The position numbers and the translations under genes were made by a program. From Bradyrhizobium sp. AUGA SZCCT0158 (GTDB lineage Bacteria; Pseudomonadota; Alphaproteobacteria; Rhizobiales; Xanthobacteraceae): a stretch of DNA of 64,000 bases. The stretch's first letter is position 1. Every line of letters begins with the position of its first letter. Under the pieces are notes generated by a model that ran no database searches, had not been told where the DNA came from, and was given only the letters and a program-made list of their open reading frames with translations. The stretch lies in NCBI RefSeq assembly GCF_018130065.1, contig NZ_JAFCME010000015.1:124001-188000 (forward strand), given 5' to 3'. Positions 4,946 to 27,820 of the stretch are shown here, one piece after another.

Positions 4946-5322
4946 GGCCTGCCCGGTGAGGGATTGGGCACGGAGGATTTCTTGGGCTGAACGTCGGGGA
5001 TGCATTGGGCGCACGCTTTCCGCGTGGCGGCCCGACCATCGCTTGACCTGTCACTGCCACATGCAGCGAGCACCCGAGTGCCGTTCTACACGCCAACCGA
5101 AAGAAAGCAATGTGTGCTGGAGGCTGATGTCCGCTCTGAGTCATTCGGCGGAAGCTGACGTCCGGGTCGGCGACTTCCGATCTTCCCCTAACAACGGACT
5201 TCACTCGTCAGATCGGCTAGTTCTGAAAAGTGCCCAAAAGCAGACATCACGATCTTTGCCGGATTCCTGCTTTGCTCCCAAGATCGGTTCGAGGCGATGA
5301 CGGAGGCGTTTTCCGTTGGGTG
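4946..5322. other. Gap without a supportable gene
   Basis: About 375 bp between two leftward genes. Apart from a possible GTG start extension of the antiporter up to 5014, I see no ribosome site, coding motif or strong terminator. The text is typical of eroded intergenic sequence. Confidence 0.4.
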
Positions 5323-24303: not shown

Positions 24304-25224
24304 CTACGCCCGCCGCAACAGGGCCGGCGCGCGCCGTTCCCGCTCCGCATCGAGCCGCGCCGCGAGCTCCGCGCTGACTTCCACCATCGGCAGCCGGACC
24401 TCGGCACTGTCGATCAGCCCGCTCTGCGCCAGCCAGTATTTTGCAGGCGCCGGGCTGGGTTCGGCGAACAACAGCCGCGTCAGTTCGGAAATATTGTTCC
24501 AGCACGCCTGTGCGCCCTGGTGGTCGCCCTGCTGCATCAGCGTCCGCACCGAGGCGAACGCTTCGGTCTCCAGATGCGCCGACAACAGGATAGCGCCGTC
24601 GGCGCCGTCGACGAGCGCCTCGTGATAGTGCGCGTCCTCGCCGGTCAGCACGCGAAAGCCTTTCGGCCGCAGGGCCAGGAACTCGATCGACTGGGCGCGG
24701 TCGGCAGAGCAATCCTTGATGCCGACGATGTTGCGATGTGCGGCGAGCTGCAGCAGGGTCTCGTTGGAGAGATTGACCGCGGTCCGGTAGGGGATGTTGT
24801 AGAGCACGATCGGCCATGAGGCGTGATCGGCGAGCACCGTGAAATGCCGCAGCAGGCCGCGCTGCGACGGCCGCGTGTAATAGGGGCTGGCGATCAAATA
24901 GAAGTCGATCGGCCAGGCGGCGGTCTCTTCGAGCGTATCCAGCATCTTGCGCGTGCTGGCGCCGGACAGGCCGAGACAGATCGGGATGTACCGCCGGCTA
25001 GCCGAGATCTCGGCCCGGGTCACCGACACCAGCTGCTCGAGCTCGTGGAGGTCCAGCGTCATGCCCTCGCCCGAGGTGGCGGCGAGGATCAAGCCGTCGA
25101 CCGGGCTATTGGCGTAGTGCCTGATCATGCGGCGCAGCGACGGCTCATCGAGTTCGCCGTTGCGAAACGGCGTAACGAGGGGCAGCCAGAGGCCCTGTAA
25201 TCGGTCTTGTGGATCGGTAGACAT
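24304..25224 (-). CDS. DapA-family lyase (dihydrodipicolinate synthase / N-acetylneuraminate lyase superfamily)
   Basis: 306 residues from the ATG at 25224 (AAGGAGATGGAACC upstream). TIM-barrel aldolase: the GEGMTLD loop, the Tyr of SPYYTRP, the YNIPYRT motif and the Schiff-base lysine in NIVGIKDCSADR. Family members condense or cleave pyruvate with an aldehyde. Whether this is the lysine-pathway enzyme or a catabolic paralogue cannot be told; the second Tyr of DapA is present. No other lysine genes are adjacent. It has a structured leader with a terminator-like hairpin. Confidence 0.85.
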   Translation of the reverse strand: MSTDPQDRLQGLWLPLVTPFRNGELDEPSLRRMIRHYANSPVDGLILAATSGEGMTLDLHELEQLVSVTRAEISASRRYIPICLGLSGASTRKMLDTLEETAAWPIDFYLIASPYYTRPSQRGLLRHFTVLADHASWPIVLYNIPYRTAVNLSNETLLQLAAHRNIVGIKDCSADRAQSIEFLALRPKGFRVLTGEDAHYHEALVDGADGAILLSAHLETEAFASVRTLMQQGDHQGAQACWNNISELTRLLFAEPSPAPAKYWLAQSGLIDSAEVRLPMVEVSAELAARLDAERERRAPALLRRA

Positions 25225-25264
25225 GGTTCCATCTCCTTGAAGGCTATTGCCGGAGACGGGACAC

Positions 25265-25292
25265 ATGAAAAAACCCCGTCCAGACGGCGGGG
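25265..25292 (-). terminator. Terminator-like hairpin in the leader of the DapA-like gene
   Basis: On the coding strand of the lyase, AACCCCGCCGTCTGGACGGGG is followed by TTTTTT, about 40 bp before the start codon. A second hairpin, GGTCCCC/GGGGACC, lies upstream at 25339-25356. It could be an attenuator of the lyase gene or the end of an upstream transcript; the two cannot be separated by sequence. Confidence 0.6.
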
Positions 25293-25338
25293 TTTCGGGA
25301 TCGGCTTGGCGGTTGATCTATCGCGCGCGTCGATCTCG

Positions 25339-25362
25339 GGTCCCCGGGTGGGGACCTTTTTT
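25339..25362 (+). terminator. Hairpin with T run, rightward
   Basis: GGTCCCCGGGTGGGGACC followed by TTTTTT on the + strand. No rightward gene precedes it, so its role is unclear; on the other strand it is a plain hairpin in the lyase leader. Confidence 0.5.
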
Positions 25363-25531
25363 CGACGACAGAGCGGCGCACGAATTCGTGATCATGTGAC
25401 GATGATGATGGCGCAACGGCGCGCTGTCAATCCGCGCACGCTCGATGACGTTTGTTTTACGGAAGAAGAAAAGATCTGGAGACGACGAAGGATCAGCTGA
25501 AATCATCTGCAGACGAAACGATCCGGAGAAG

Positions 25532-25675
25532 AAAAAAAGCCGGGCCCAAAAGAGCCCGGCTTAAGGTATTGGCCACGTGAGGCCGACACAATCACCTTCC
25601 AAGAGGGATTACTGAGCGCCCGCGCCACTGGAGGAGGGGGACATATGCGCGACACGATCGCTCAGCGTGTAAGCA
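25532..25675 (-). ncRNA. Candidate AbcR-type (alpha-r15) trans-acting small RNA
   Basis: Three consecutive stem-loops are seen on the reverse strand. The first closes with CTGAGCG (25665-25659) and CGCTCAG (25618-25612), has an inner CGCGC/GCGCG, and exposes CCCCCTCCTCC (complement of 25630-25640). The second is AAGGT...GGCC TCACGT GGCC...ACCTT. The third is AAGCCGGGC/GCCCGGCTT followed by TTTTTTT, an intrinsic terminator. The anti-Shine-Dalgarno loop, three-hairpin plan and position next to lsrB match AbcR RNAs of Agrobacterium, Sinorhizobium and Brucella, which lie beside this LysR gene and repress transporter mRNAs via Hfq. A promoter TTTACG-18-CATAGT lies just upstream. Confidence 0.6.
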
Positions 25676-25713
25676 CTATGATCCCCATCTGCGGCTTGCG
25701 TAAACCGGTTAAG

Positions 25714-25732
25714 CCGCATGTCTGACATGCGG
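25714..25732. promoter_or_regulatory. 19 bp palindrome upstream of the candidate sRNA
   Basis: CCGCATGTC-T-GACATGCGG is perfect. Its centre lies about 50 bp upstream of the predicted sRNA start, where LysR-type activators usually bind. LsrB/VtlR is the obvious candidate protein since its gene is next door. Confidence 0.45.
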
Positions 25733-25928: not shown

Positions 25929-26858
25929 CTAGGAGGGCCAGCGCTGCGCCTTGCTCACAACGAAATCGCGGAACACCTGCACCCGCGCCACCGTCTTCAA
26001 CTCTTCGGGATAGACGAAGTAGGTGTCGATCTGGATCGAGTCGGTCTCGCCGAACAGCTGCACCAGACGGTTGTTCTCCTCGACGAGGTAGTCGGGCAGG
26101 GCGGCGATGCCGAGCCCCTGCTGACAGGCCCTGACAAGACCAAGGATGTTGTTGACCTTGAAATAAGCCTCGCGCGGACCCGAGCCGTTGCGGCCGGCGT
26201 CGATCAGCCAGCTGCGGTTCTGCAGGTGCGGCGGCACCTGGGAATCGCCGAGCATGATGATGCGATGCGAGTCGAGGTCATCGAGGGTGCGCGGCGTGCC
26301 GAAGCGCTTGATGTATTCCGGCGAGCAATAGGCATGGAAGCCGATCGAGAACAGCTTGCGCTGGATCAGGTCCGGCTGGGTCGGCTTGCGGGTCCGGATC
26401 GCGACGTCGGCCTCGCGCATCGACAGATCGAGATCCTCGTCGGTCACGATCAGCGAGATGCGGATGTCCGGATAGAGGCTGGTGAACTCGTCGAGCCGCG
26501 GAATCAGCCAGTTGATGCCGAGCGCCGGCGGCGTGGTGATCTTGAGGTCGCCTGACGGCCGCTCGCGGCTGTCGGTGAGCTTGGCGCGCGCCGCCTGCAG
26601 CTGCATGAACACGTCATGCGCGGTGCGGAACAAGAGGTCGCCCTGTTCGGTGAGGATCAGCCCGCGCGCATGGCGATGGAACAGCGATACCGCAAGCTCC
26701 TGCTCCAGCGCCGAGACTTGCCGCGATACCGCCGATTGTGAAAGCCCGAGTTGCTCGCCGGCATGGGTGAAGCTGCCCGCTTCCGCCGCCGCGTGAAACA
26801 CCTTCAGCTTGTCCCAATCCATGTCCGTGAATCCGTCCCGTGTTCGACGCGTAATCAT
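25929..26858 (-). CDS. lsrB: LysR-type regulator of the LsrB/VtlR group
   Basis: 309 residues if started at the ATG at 26858, which overlaps the trxB stop as ATGA; most relatives begin at MDWDKLKVFHAAAEAGSFTH, which is the ATG at 26822. HTH at residues 20-70 (LGLSQSAVSRQVSALEQELA), then an effector domain of periplasmic-binding fold. The N-terminus matches the LsrB/VtlR proteins of rhizobia, Agrobacterium and Brucella, which control stress and cell-envelope genes and AbcR small RNAs. It is co-transcribed with trxB, and a candidate AbcR RNA lies directly downstream, which supports the assignment. Confidence 0.85.
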   Translation of the reverse strand: MITRRTRDGFTDMDWDKLKVFHAAAEAGSFTHAGEQLGLSQSAVSRQVSALEQELAVSLFHRHARGLILTEQGDLLFRTAHDVFMQLQAARAKLTDSRERPSGDLKITTPPALGINWLIPRLDEFTSLYPDIRISLIVTDEDLDLSMREADVAIRTRKPTQPDLIQRKLFSIGFHAYCSPEYIKRFGTPRTLDDLDSHRIIMLGDSQVPPHLQNRSWLIDAGRNGSGPREAYFKVNNILGLVRACQQGLGIAALPDYLVEENNRLVQLFGETDSIQIDTYFVYPEELKTVARVQVFRDFVVSKAQRWPS

Positions 26859-27820
26859 TCTGCTGCCGCCCGATCACTCGCACGCAAGGCGAGAAAGCGC
26901 TCGGCCTCGAGGGCCGCCATACAGCCAAGGCCCGCGGCCGTGACCGCCTGCCGCCAGGTTTCGTCCGCGACGTCGCCGGCGGCGAACAGGCCGGGCACCG
27001 ACGTCGCCGTCGAGTTCGGCGCCACCTCGACATAGCCGGAGGGTTTCAGTTTGACCTGGCCGGCGACGAGTTCGGTTGCCGGCGCGTGGCCGATGGCGAT
27101 GAAGACGCCGTCCGCGGGCACCTCCGTCAGCGCGCCGCTCTTGACGTTTTTCAGGCGCACATGGGTGACCTTGCCTGGATTTTCGGTGCCGCAGATTTCG
27201 TCGATCGCACTGTCCCAGATCACCTTGATCTTCGGGTTCTTGAACAGGCGATCCTGCAGGATGCGCTCGGCGCGGAAATGATCGCGGCGATGCACGATGG
27301 TGACCTGCGAGGCGAAGTTGGTGAGGAACAGCGCTTCCTCGACCGCGGTGTTGCCGCCGCCGACCACCATGACTTCCTTGCCCCGATAGAAGAAGCCGTC
27401 GCAGGTCGCGCAGGCCGAGACGCCAAAGCCCTTGAACTTCTCTTCCGACGGCATGCCGAGCCAGCGCGCCTGGGCGCCGGTGGCAAGGATCACGGTTTCG
27501 GCGAGATAGACCTCGCCGCTGTCGCAGGTCAGACGGAACGGCCGCTGCGTGGTGTCGAGTTTGGTGACGAGATCGGTGACGAGCTTGGTGCCGACATGGG
27601 CCGCCTGTTTTTCCATCTGCTCCATCAGCCACGGACCCTGGATGACATCCGCAAAGCCCGGATAGTTTTCCACGTCGGTGGTGATGGTGAGCTGGCCGCC
27701 GGGCTGGATGCCCTGGATCAGCACCGGCTCAAGCATCGCCCGCGCGGCGTAGATCGCTGCGGTGTACCCGGCAGGGCCGGAACCGATAATGACGACCTTG
27801 GCATGGATAGGCGCGGGCAT
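26855..27820 (-). CDS. trxB: Thioredoxin-disulfide reductase
   Basis: 321 residues, the normal length. FAD site GSGPAGYTAAIYAAR at the N-terminus, redox motif CATC in SACATCDGFFYRG, NADPH site VVGGGNTAVEEALFL, and the C-terminal FAD motif GLFAAGDVAD. It passes electrons from NADPH to thioredoxin in the cytoplasm. The stop overlaps the first ATG of lsrB by 4 bp, so the pair is translationally coupled, tying a redox enzyme to its regulator-like neighbour. Confidence 0.96.
   Translation of the reverse strand: MPAPIHAKVVIIGSGPAGYTAAIYAARAMLEPVLIQGIQPGGQLTITTDVENYPGFADVIQGPWLMEQMEKQAAHVGTKLVTDLVTKLDTTQRPFRLTCDSGEVYLAETVILATGAQARWLGMPSEEKFKGFGVSACATCDGFFYRGKEVMVVGGGNTAVEEALFLTNFASQVTIVHRRDHFRAERILQDRLFKNPKIKVIWDSAIDEICGTENPGKVTHVRLKNVKSGALTEVPADGVFIAIGHAPATELVAGQVKLKPSGYVEVAPNSTATSVPGLFAAGDVADETWRQAVTAAGLGCMAALEAERFLALRASDRAAAE

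Follow-up and report, generated by a model that had tools for sequence, protein, structure and literature searches.

The systems closest to the RNA gene described here are those of the AbcR (alpha-r15) RNAs. Sinorhizobium meliloti has two of them in tandem, 121 and 114 nt long. AbcR1 is encoded beside lsrB, with an LsrB box about 60 nt before its start, and it contains three hairpins, an anti-Shine-Dalgarno sequence in the first loop, and a U-tail (PMC8844928, PMC3712013); the loop reads UCCUCCC (PMC3712013). The box, GCAT-N3-TG-N3-T, is reported at -61 to -49, and removal of the LsrB motif cuts the abcR1 promoter more than 22-fold (PMC8844928). A northern blot of S. meliloti 1021 points the other way, as the AbcR RNAs are described there as not being under LsrB control (PMC7486931, contrary to PMC8844928). 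In Agrobacterium tumefaciens, the abcR1 promoter is bound by VtlR (PMC7486931). In this species and in Brucella abortus, one of the RNAs AbcR1 and AbcR2 is under VtlR/LsrB control, and both carry a motif M1 in loop 1 and a C/U motif, M2, between hairpins 1 and 2 (PMC7486931, PMC5461406). M2 is required for the virulence of Brucella (PMC5461406). Members of alpha-r15 are said to be always multi-copy (PMC3712013).

The RNA gene that we predict in Bradyrhizobium resembles S. meliloti AbcR1 in its place beside lsrB, in the distance of the box from its start, and in its three hairpins, anti-Shine-Dalgarno loop, and U-tail. It further resembles the A. tumefaciens and B. abortus RNAs in its candidate VtlR/LsrB control and in the places of the two motifs. 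Unlike the S. meliloti pair, it is present as one copy of about 137 nt, with a longer C-rich loop and without a match to RF02345, the Rfam model of alpha-r15 (cut-off 40 bits). Compared to the A. tumefaciens and B. abortus RNAs, it is again single-copy and has AUCCCUCUUGG in place of GUUCCC at M2. The enterobacterial RNA GcvB differs from it in structure and in its regulators. It can be likened to the Bradyrhizobium RNA in the function proposed for the latter, as it represses many ABC transporter mRNAs (PMC3712013).

No description of an AbcR-type regulator in Bradyrhizobium was found in the literature searched, although an earlier one may exist. In a contig of 9,105,828 bases, which we take to be that of strain USDA 110, the RNA lies at 8.12 Mb. 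Small RNAs reported from the same lineage include BjsR1-BjsR10 and BjrC68/80/174/1505 (PMC5082802), and the BjsR coordinates given in that source do not coincide with the position of the RNA in this contig (about 8,121,231-8,121,366, plus strand). Identity with BjsR1, which starts at 1,134,665 (PMC5082802), was considered on account of one genome that has the RNA near 1.134 Mb, and was ruled out by the position at 8.12 Mb. Bradyrhizobium is a major crop symbiont. The small RNA, its promoter, and its regulator are now concrete objects for testing.

Gene order and predicted fold

The window, by which we mean the whole stretch of 64,000 nt that was analysed, comes from a genome of 7.35 Mb. On its minus strand, trxB is followed by lsrB, the predicted RNA gene, and a DHDPS-family gene (Table 1). 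The LsrB protein is identical over 309 residues to that of Bradyrhizobium sp. SZCCT0428 (L209). The predicted RNA gene and its structure, its AbcR homology, its synteny, and its LsrB box are all read from the DNA sequence.

Table 1. Predicted features of the trxB-lsrB-RNA locus (window coordinates)
Feature	Position	Strand	Basis or remark
trxB, thioredoxin reductase, synteny marker	26855-27820	-	TIGR01292 above cut-off
lsrB/vtlR, LysR-type regulator, likely activator	25929-26858	-	PF00126 and PF03466 matches
Candidate LsrB/VtlR box, palindrome GCATGTCTGACATGC	25716-25730	.	fits GCAT-N3-TG-N3-T on the plus strand
-35 region TTTACG	25699-25704	-	TTG at about the same place in many relatives
-10 box CATAGT	25675-25680	-	same place in family alignment
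AbcR-type sRNA gene, predicted, about 137 nt	25532-25668	-	fold, terminator, covariation, conservation; 5' end near 25668 set from the -10 box, 3' end in the T-run near 25532
Stem-loop 1 (SL1)	25611-25666	-	predicted fold; outer stem 25666-25659 with 25618-25611, inner stem above
CCCCCUCCUCC loop, anti-Shine-Dalgarno, at the AbcR M1 place	25630-25640	-	
AUCCCUCUUGG, at the AbcR M2 place (GUUCCC in Brucella)	25599-25609	-	family alignment, coordinates
25-nt core CUCUUGGAAGGUGAUUGUGUCGGCC, near-invariant	25581-25605	-	alignment of BLAST-found relatives
Stem-loop 2 (SL2), GGCC-UCACGU-GGCC	25571-25584	-	predicted fold
Intrinsic terminator, 11-bp stem and T-run	25532-25562	-	fold, terminator scan, covariation
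DHDPS-family gene	24304-25227	-	

The region 25525-25685 has a predicted folding energy of -68.7 kcal/mol (z = -4.39), which was reached by none of 200 shuffled sequences. In the fold, SL1 leaves its CCCCCUCCUCC loop open, SL2 is the GGCC-UCACGU-GGCC stem, and the terminator has its 11-bp stem; a small additional hairpin between SL1 and SL2 is part of the minimum-energy fold and absent from the centroid. The loop is complementary to ribosome-binding sites and has a mean unpaired probability of 0.95 (52 sequences). A terminator scan returned the same hairpin at 25562-25537 (minus strand), which by itself is not telling, because 2 terminators were found against 1.0 (sd 1.0) in shuffles.

Covariation was counted in 52 of the 59 relatives, seven being omitted for indels or an odd SL1, and with SL2 drawn as the GGCC stem instead of the version given by RNAalifold. 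In these non-redundant sequences, 95.1% of cells were paired compared to 91.3% in shuffles, a percentage that is slightly flattering because of the seven omissions. Changes on both sides occurred in 15 of 31 pairs, amounting to 59 such cells versus 18.8 in shuffles, and none of 500 shuffles attained any of the five measures used. Slid versions of the structure, which served as a control, had 25-47% of cells paired. SL1 contributed the bulk of the covariation, with both-side changes in 10 of its 16 pairs. SL2 was paired in 98.6% of cells and is backed by conservation within the family, because no pair there changes on both sides. In a cross-family alignment of 34 rows, 2 of which are wrong-strand terminator matches (L092, L093), both-side changes were seen in 29 of 31 pairs, including 4 of 4 in SL2, and 88.8% of cells were paired versus 65.6% in shuffles; these figures lean toward the model, because the alignment was fitted to it.

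An earlier note, made from the letters of the window, had described three stem-loops here, one of them GGCC TCACGT GGCC, together with an exposed CCCCCUCCUCC, an intrinsic terminator, and an LsrB/VtlR gene upstream. All of these elements were recovered at that position, all on the minus strand: the fold and the covariation agree with the stem-loops, the loop is open, the terminator has its stem and T-run, and the upstream gene encodes a LysR-type regulator and is itself preceded by trxB. The range given in that note, 25532-25675, does hold the RNA (25668-25532), while the promoter signals and the LsrB box extend beyond it, up to 25730.

Conservation, promoter and LsrB box

Of 265 genomes of the genus, 260 have the RNA by BLAST (250 of the 251 of good quality), and 258 of the 260 carriers gave a single match. 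Within the bacterial family, 52 of 149 genomes had a match at E <= 0.01 (53 rows, 42 long and 11 short or weak). R1, a model built from 59 sequences of that bacterial family, confirmed four of the weak places with E-values no higher than 4e-12. Among the matches listed, the named carriers include Bradyrhizobium, Afipia, Tardiphaga, and Rhodopseudomonas. In the source genome, BLAST and R1 each gave a single match, a count that a strongly diverged second copy could escape. The 25-nt core CUCUUGGAAGGUGAUUGUGUCGGCC was exact in 185 of the 190 loci returned by a search that allowed up to 7 mismatches, the named loci among these having been picked by the core itself. A Bradyrhizobium-type trxB-lsrB-RNA locus was also present in a record titled Frankia sp. 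RB7 (L217), which is probably mislabelled or contaminated.

Promoter-like signals precede the RNA in the family alignment. In raw counts, a loose CAWA pattern occupies the -10 place in 55 of 59 relatives and a loose TTG pattern the -35 place in 58 of 59. An LsrB-box match lies within 130 nt in 56 of the 59, compared to 0.56 expected from shuffles, and it starts at -53 to -60 in 56 of 59 if the RNA is assumed to begin 66 nt before the core. Of 13 alpha-r15 loci linked to lsrB, 10 have the same box at -59 to -65; among the 7 others, 4 have it at -59 or -60. Matches to the short LsrB consensus are nothing unusual in the window, which holds 5 of them against an expectation of 8.6; the telling features are the position and the full palindrome. 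An exact copy of GCATGNCWGACATGC occurs once in the whole genome, at the RNA promoter, and six further places are one base off. Most likely, as far as the box and its place can tell, LsrB switches the RNA on.

Since the perfect palindrome occurs only once in 7.35 Mb, it is also conceivable, if doubtful, that LsrB has this RNA as its principal output, and perhaps as its ancestral and sole direct one. The regulon would then be close to a single gene, with a redox regulator acting on metabolism through one small RNA. If so, AbcR would be a wide alphaproteobacterial RNA family, which the narrow Rfam model sees only in part.

Relation to the AbcR RNAs

The earlier note had proposed an AbcR-type RNA and had named the lack of a covariance match to alpha-r15 as a result that would refute it. 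With RF02345 there is indeed no match in the window or the genome, nor does any Rfam family match the RNA locus; the only genome match of RF02345 at E <= 10 per genome scored 16.3 bits and lies elsewhere, and a match below about 16 bits at the RNA would go unseen. All 14 Rfam matches listed at the locus at E <= 10 fall under their gathering scores, 10 of them over the terminator, and were taken as chance. As a positive control, RF02345 was run on 199 genomes of the order, of which 24 had matches at E <= 0.001 and 7 had matches above the cut-off.

The proposal itself is nevertheless supported by other searches. Among 20 alpha-r15 loci taken from the order, 13 have an lsrB homologue within 1.5 kb. 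R1 recovers 18 of the 20 at the alpha-r15 place (E 1e-10 to 4e-4), with no match at L031 and L032, the two top-scoring loci of the 20. As RF02345 finds lsrB-linked RNAs in other families that R1 also finds, we read the Rfam model as narrow. The GC-rich terminator alone can score about 20 bits with R1, even on the wrong strand, and a profile without the terminator was therefore also searched against 45 loci. This gave 13 hits with E 6e-4 to 0.14, all at the AbcR place, which comprise 9 of the 24 given alpha-r15 places and 4 places of the RNA's own family; the next hit had E 2.1 and the best in five-fold shuffled loci E 2.4.

A survey anchored on lsrB itself served as an unbiased test. Of 121 genomes of the order, 113 have an lsrB match at E <= 1e-60. 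R2, a model that carries the structure tested on the 52 relatives, was searched at 110 of 115 lsrB places, the 5 weakest lsrB matches being omitted, and found 31 matches at E <= 0.001, 28 of them outside the genus. Every one of the 31 lies downstream of lsrB on the same strand, 62 to 793 nt away. R2 found nothing at this threshold in the other 79 of the 110 loci; some of these are diverged and not empty, as the lsrB locus L390 has two copies of the core, yet was missed by R2. Of 109 loci, 27 have the core motif itself downstream of lsrB, and none has it on the opposite strand or inside lsrB; in 20 of these 27 an LsrB box lies 60-200 nt upstream of it. A shared core, CAGCTGTTCCCCTCTGGAAGGTGATTG in the intermediates versus CAGTAATCCCTCTTGGAAGGTGATTG in the window RNA, serves as a bridge. 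R1 misses L031 and L032 and R2 misses L390; the link to classic AbcR goes via such intermediates.

R1 was also run on other orders of the class, where it matched 13 of 239 genomes other than the source, with a match beside lsrB in four of them. The lsrB-AbcR pair thus extends past the order, and the Rfam model of this well-studied family stops short. In two genomes of another order (G764 and G637; L226 and L231), one AbcR-like match lies beside lsrB and a second has no lsrB within 1.5 kb.

Together with the position downstream of lsrB and the LsrB box, the results with R1, R2, and the terminator-free profile support homology between the RNA and the AbcR (alpha-r15) RNAs. As far as the sequence can tell, it also works in the manner of AbcR. 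As it has no RF02345 match and is not multi-copy, it falls outside alpha-r15 as defined by Rfam, and we class it as a variant of AbcR that is single-copy, divergent, and only distantly related to the known members.

Proposed function, alternatives and neighbouring features

Our preferred explanation, to which we assign a probability of roughly 0.85, is that the RNA is the AbcR homologue of the Bradyrhizobium lineage, activated by LsrB and repressing transporter mRNAs, probably with Hfq. LsrB, made from the gene just upstream, would bind the GCATGTCTGACATGC box and activate a housekeeping promoter, and its own terminator would end the RNA after about 137 nt. The open CCCCCUCCUCC loop of the RNA could then pair with purine-rich ribosome-binding sites and block translation of the targets, mainly solute-binding proteins of ABC transporters, while Hfq would probably help at the U-tail. 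In this way, nutrient uptake would be lowered under a redox or growth signal sensed by LsrB. Within this explanation, we infer the transcription of the RNA, the binding of LsrB and of Hfq, and the targets. Counted against it are the missing RF02345 match, the single copy, the altered and partly paired M2, the 79 of 110 lsrB loci without an R2 match, the failure of R1 at L031 and L032 and of R2 at L390, the M1 target test, and the northern blot in PMC7486931.

The target test compared 30 of 56 Peripla_BP_6 genes of the source genome with 30 of its 108 short-chain dehydrogenase genes, using the top scorers from each group and start codons chosen by script. M1 pairs better with the Peripla_BP_6 genes (p 4e-4), but the 16S tail shows the same preference (p 5e-4), and the corrected value for M1 is p 0.08; the M1 result is not separable from plain Shine-Dalgarno strength. 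For M2, a raw p of 0.047 became 0.49. With the advantage of M1 this weak once corrected, and none to speak of for M2, the transporter role is drawn from homology. By that analogy, the RNA most likely blocks ribosome-binding sites, chiefly those of transporter mRNAs, and Hfq is probably its helper. A U-tail is present.

These corrected values also leave room for an RNA that is AbcR by descent and has taken up a new job dictated by its frozen core, either damping translation in general or binding protein. The near-invariance of the 25 nt fits this, and so does the changed M2, of which AUCCCUCUUGG has a mean unpaired probability of 0.52 (in the 50 of 52 sequences having it) and is half paired in the model. 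The M1 loop, however, is still open and C-rich and the LsrB box has been retained, and we regard such a change of function as unlikely. Descent itself could be disputed if an unrelated, lineage-specific small RNA beside lsrB had become AbcR-like by convergence on an anti-Shine-Dalgarno loop. Such loops are known elsewhere, for example in SmelA075 (PMC3927594), and the Rfam alpha-r15 model does miss the RNA. Intermediates from other families, however, share the position, the strand, the promoter box, and the GGAAGGTGATTG core with it, which makes convergence very unlikely.

The two readings that deny an independent RNA gene fare worse. The RNA runs in the same direction as lsrB and, in the three Bradyrhizobium loci measured, is separated from the upstream lsrB match by 62 to 255 nt, as would be a processed 3'-UTR piece of a trxB-lsrB mRNA with no promoter of its own; given that promoter-like boxes and the LsrB box are conserved directly upstream, and that the distance to lsrB ranges from 62 to 793 nt in the 31 homologues, we find this highly improbable. 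As for a short protein-coding gene (MSPSSS...), an ATG or TTG does precede TCC-CCC-TCC in 47 of 59 relatives. The frame stops after 11 codons in 20 of the 59, however, has no stop within 68 codons in 8, and differs greatly in length in the rest. This wide variation in length led us to reject the small ORF; the loop moreover contains indels, the stems show compensatory changes, and, by analogy, AbcR1 and AbcR2 of S. meliloti are reported to be hardly translated (PMC10117765). The chance that the locus encodes a protein is next to negligible.

The region downstream of the RNA holds a further candidate element. A 25-codon ORF (MITNSCAALSSKKGPHPGTRDRRAR) at 25318-25395 is followed by a GC-rich hairpin and T-run at 25268-25295, just before the DHDPS-family gene, and has upstream of it a promoter-like TTGACA-N17-CATCAT (10/12) at 25402-25430, all on the minus strand. 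The ORF and hairpin look like a leader peptide with an attenuator. Of 190 loci, 108 have an ORF beginning ATGATCACGA downstream of the RNA. It takes 81 forms, and most of the 40 forms listed of these read like MITxSCA..SKK.P.PG. Elsewhere in the window, an nhaA-I RNA motif was detected at 5023-5075 (minus strand), with 44.3 bits against a gathering score of 37.
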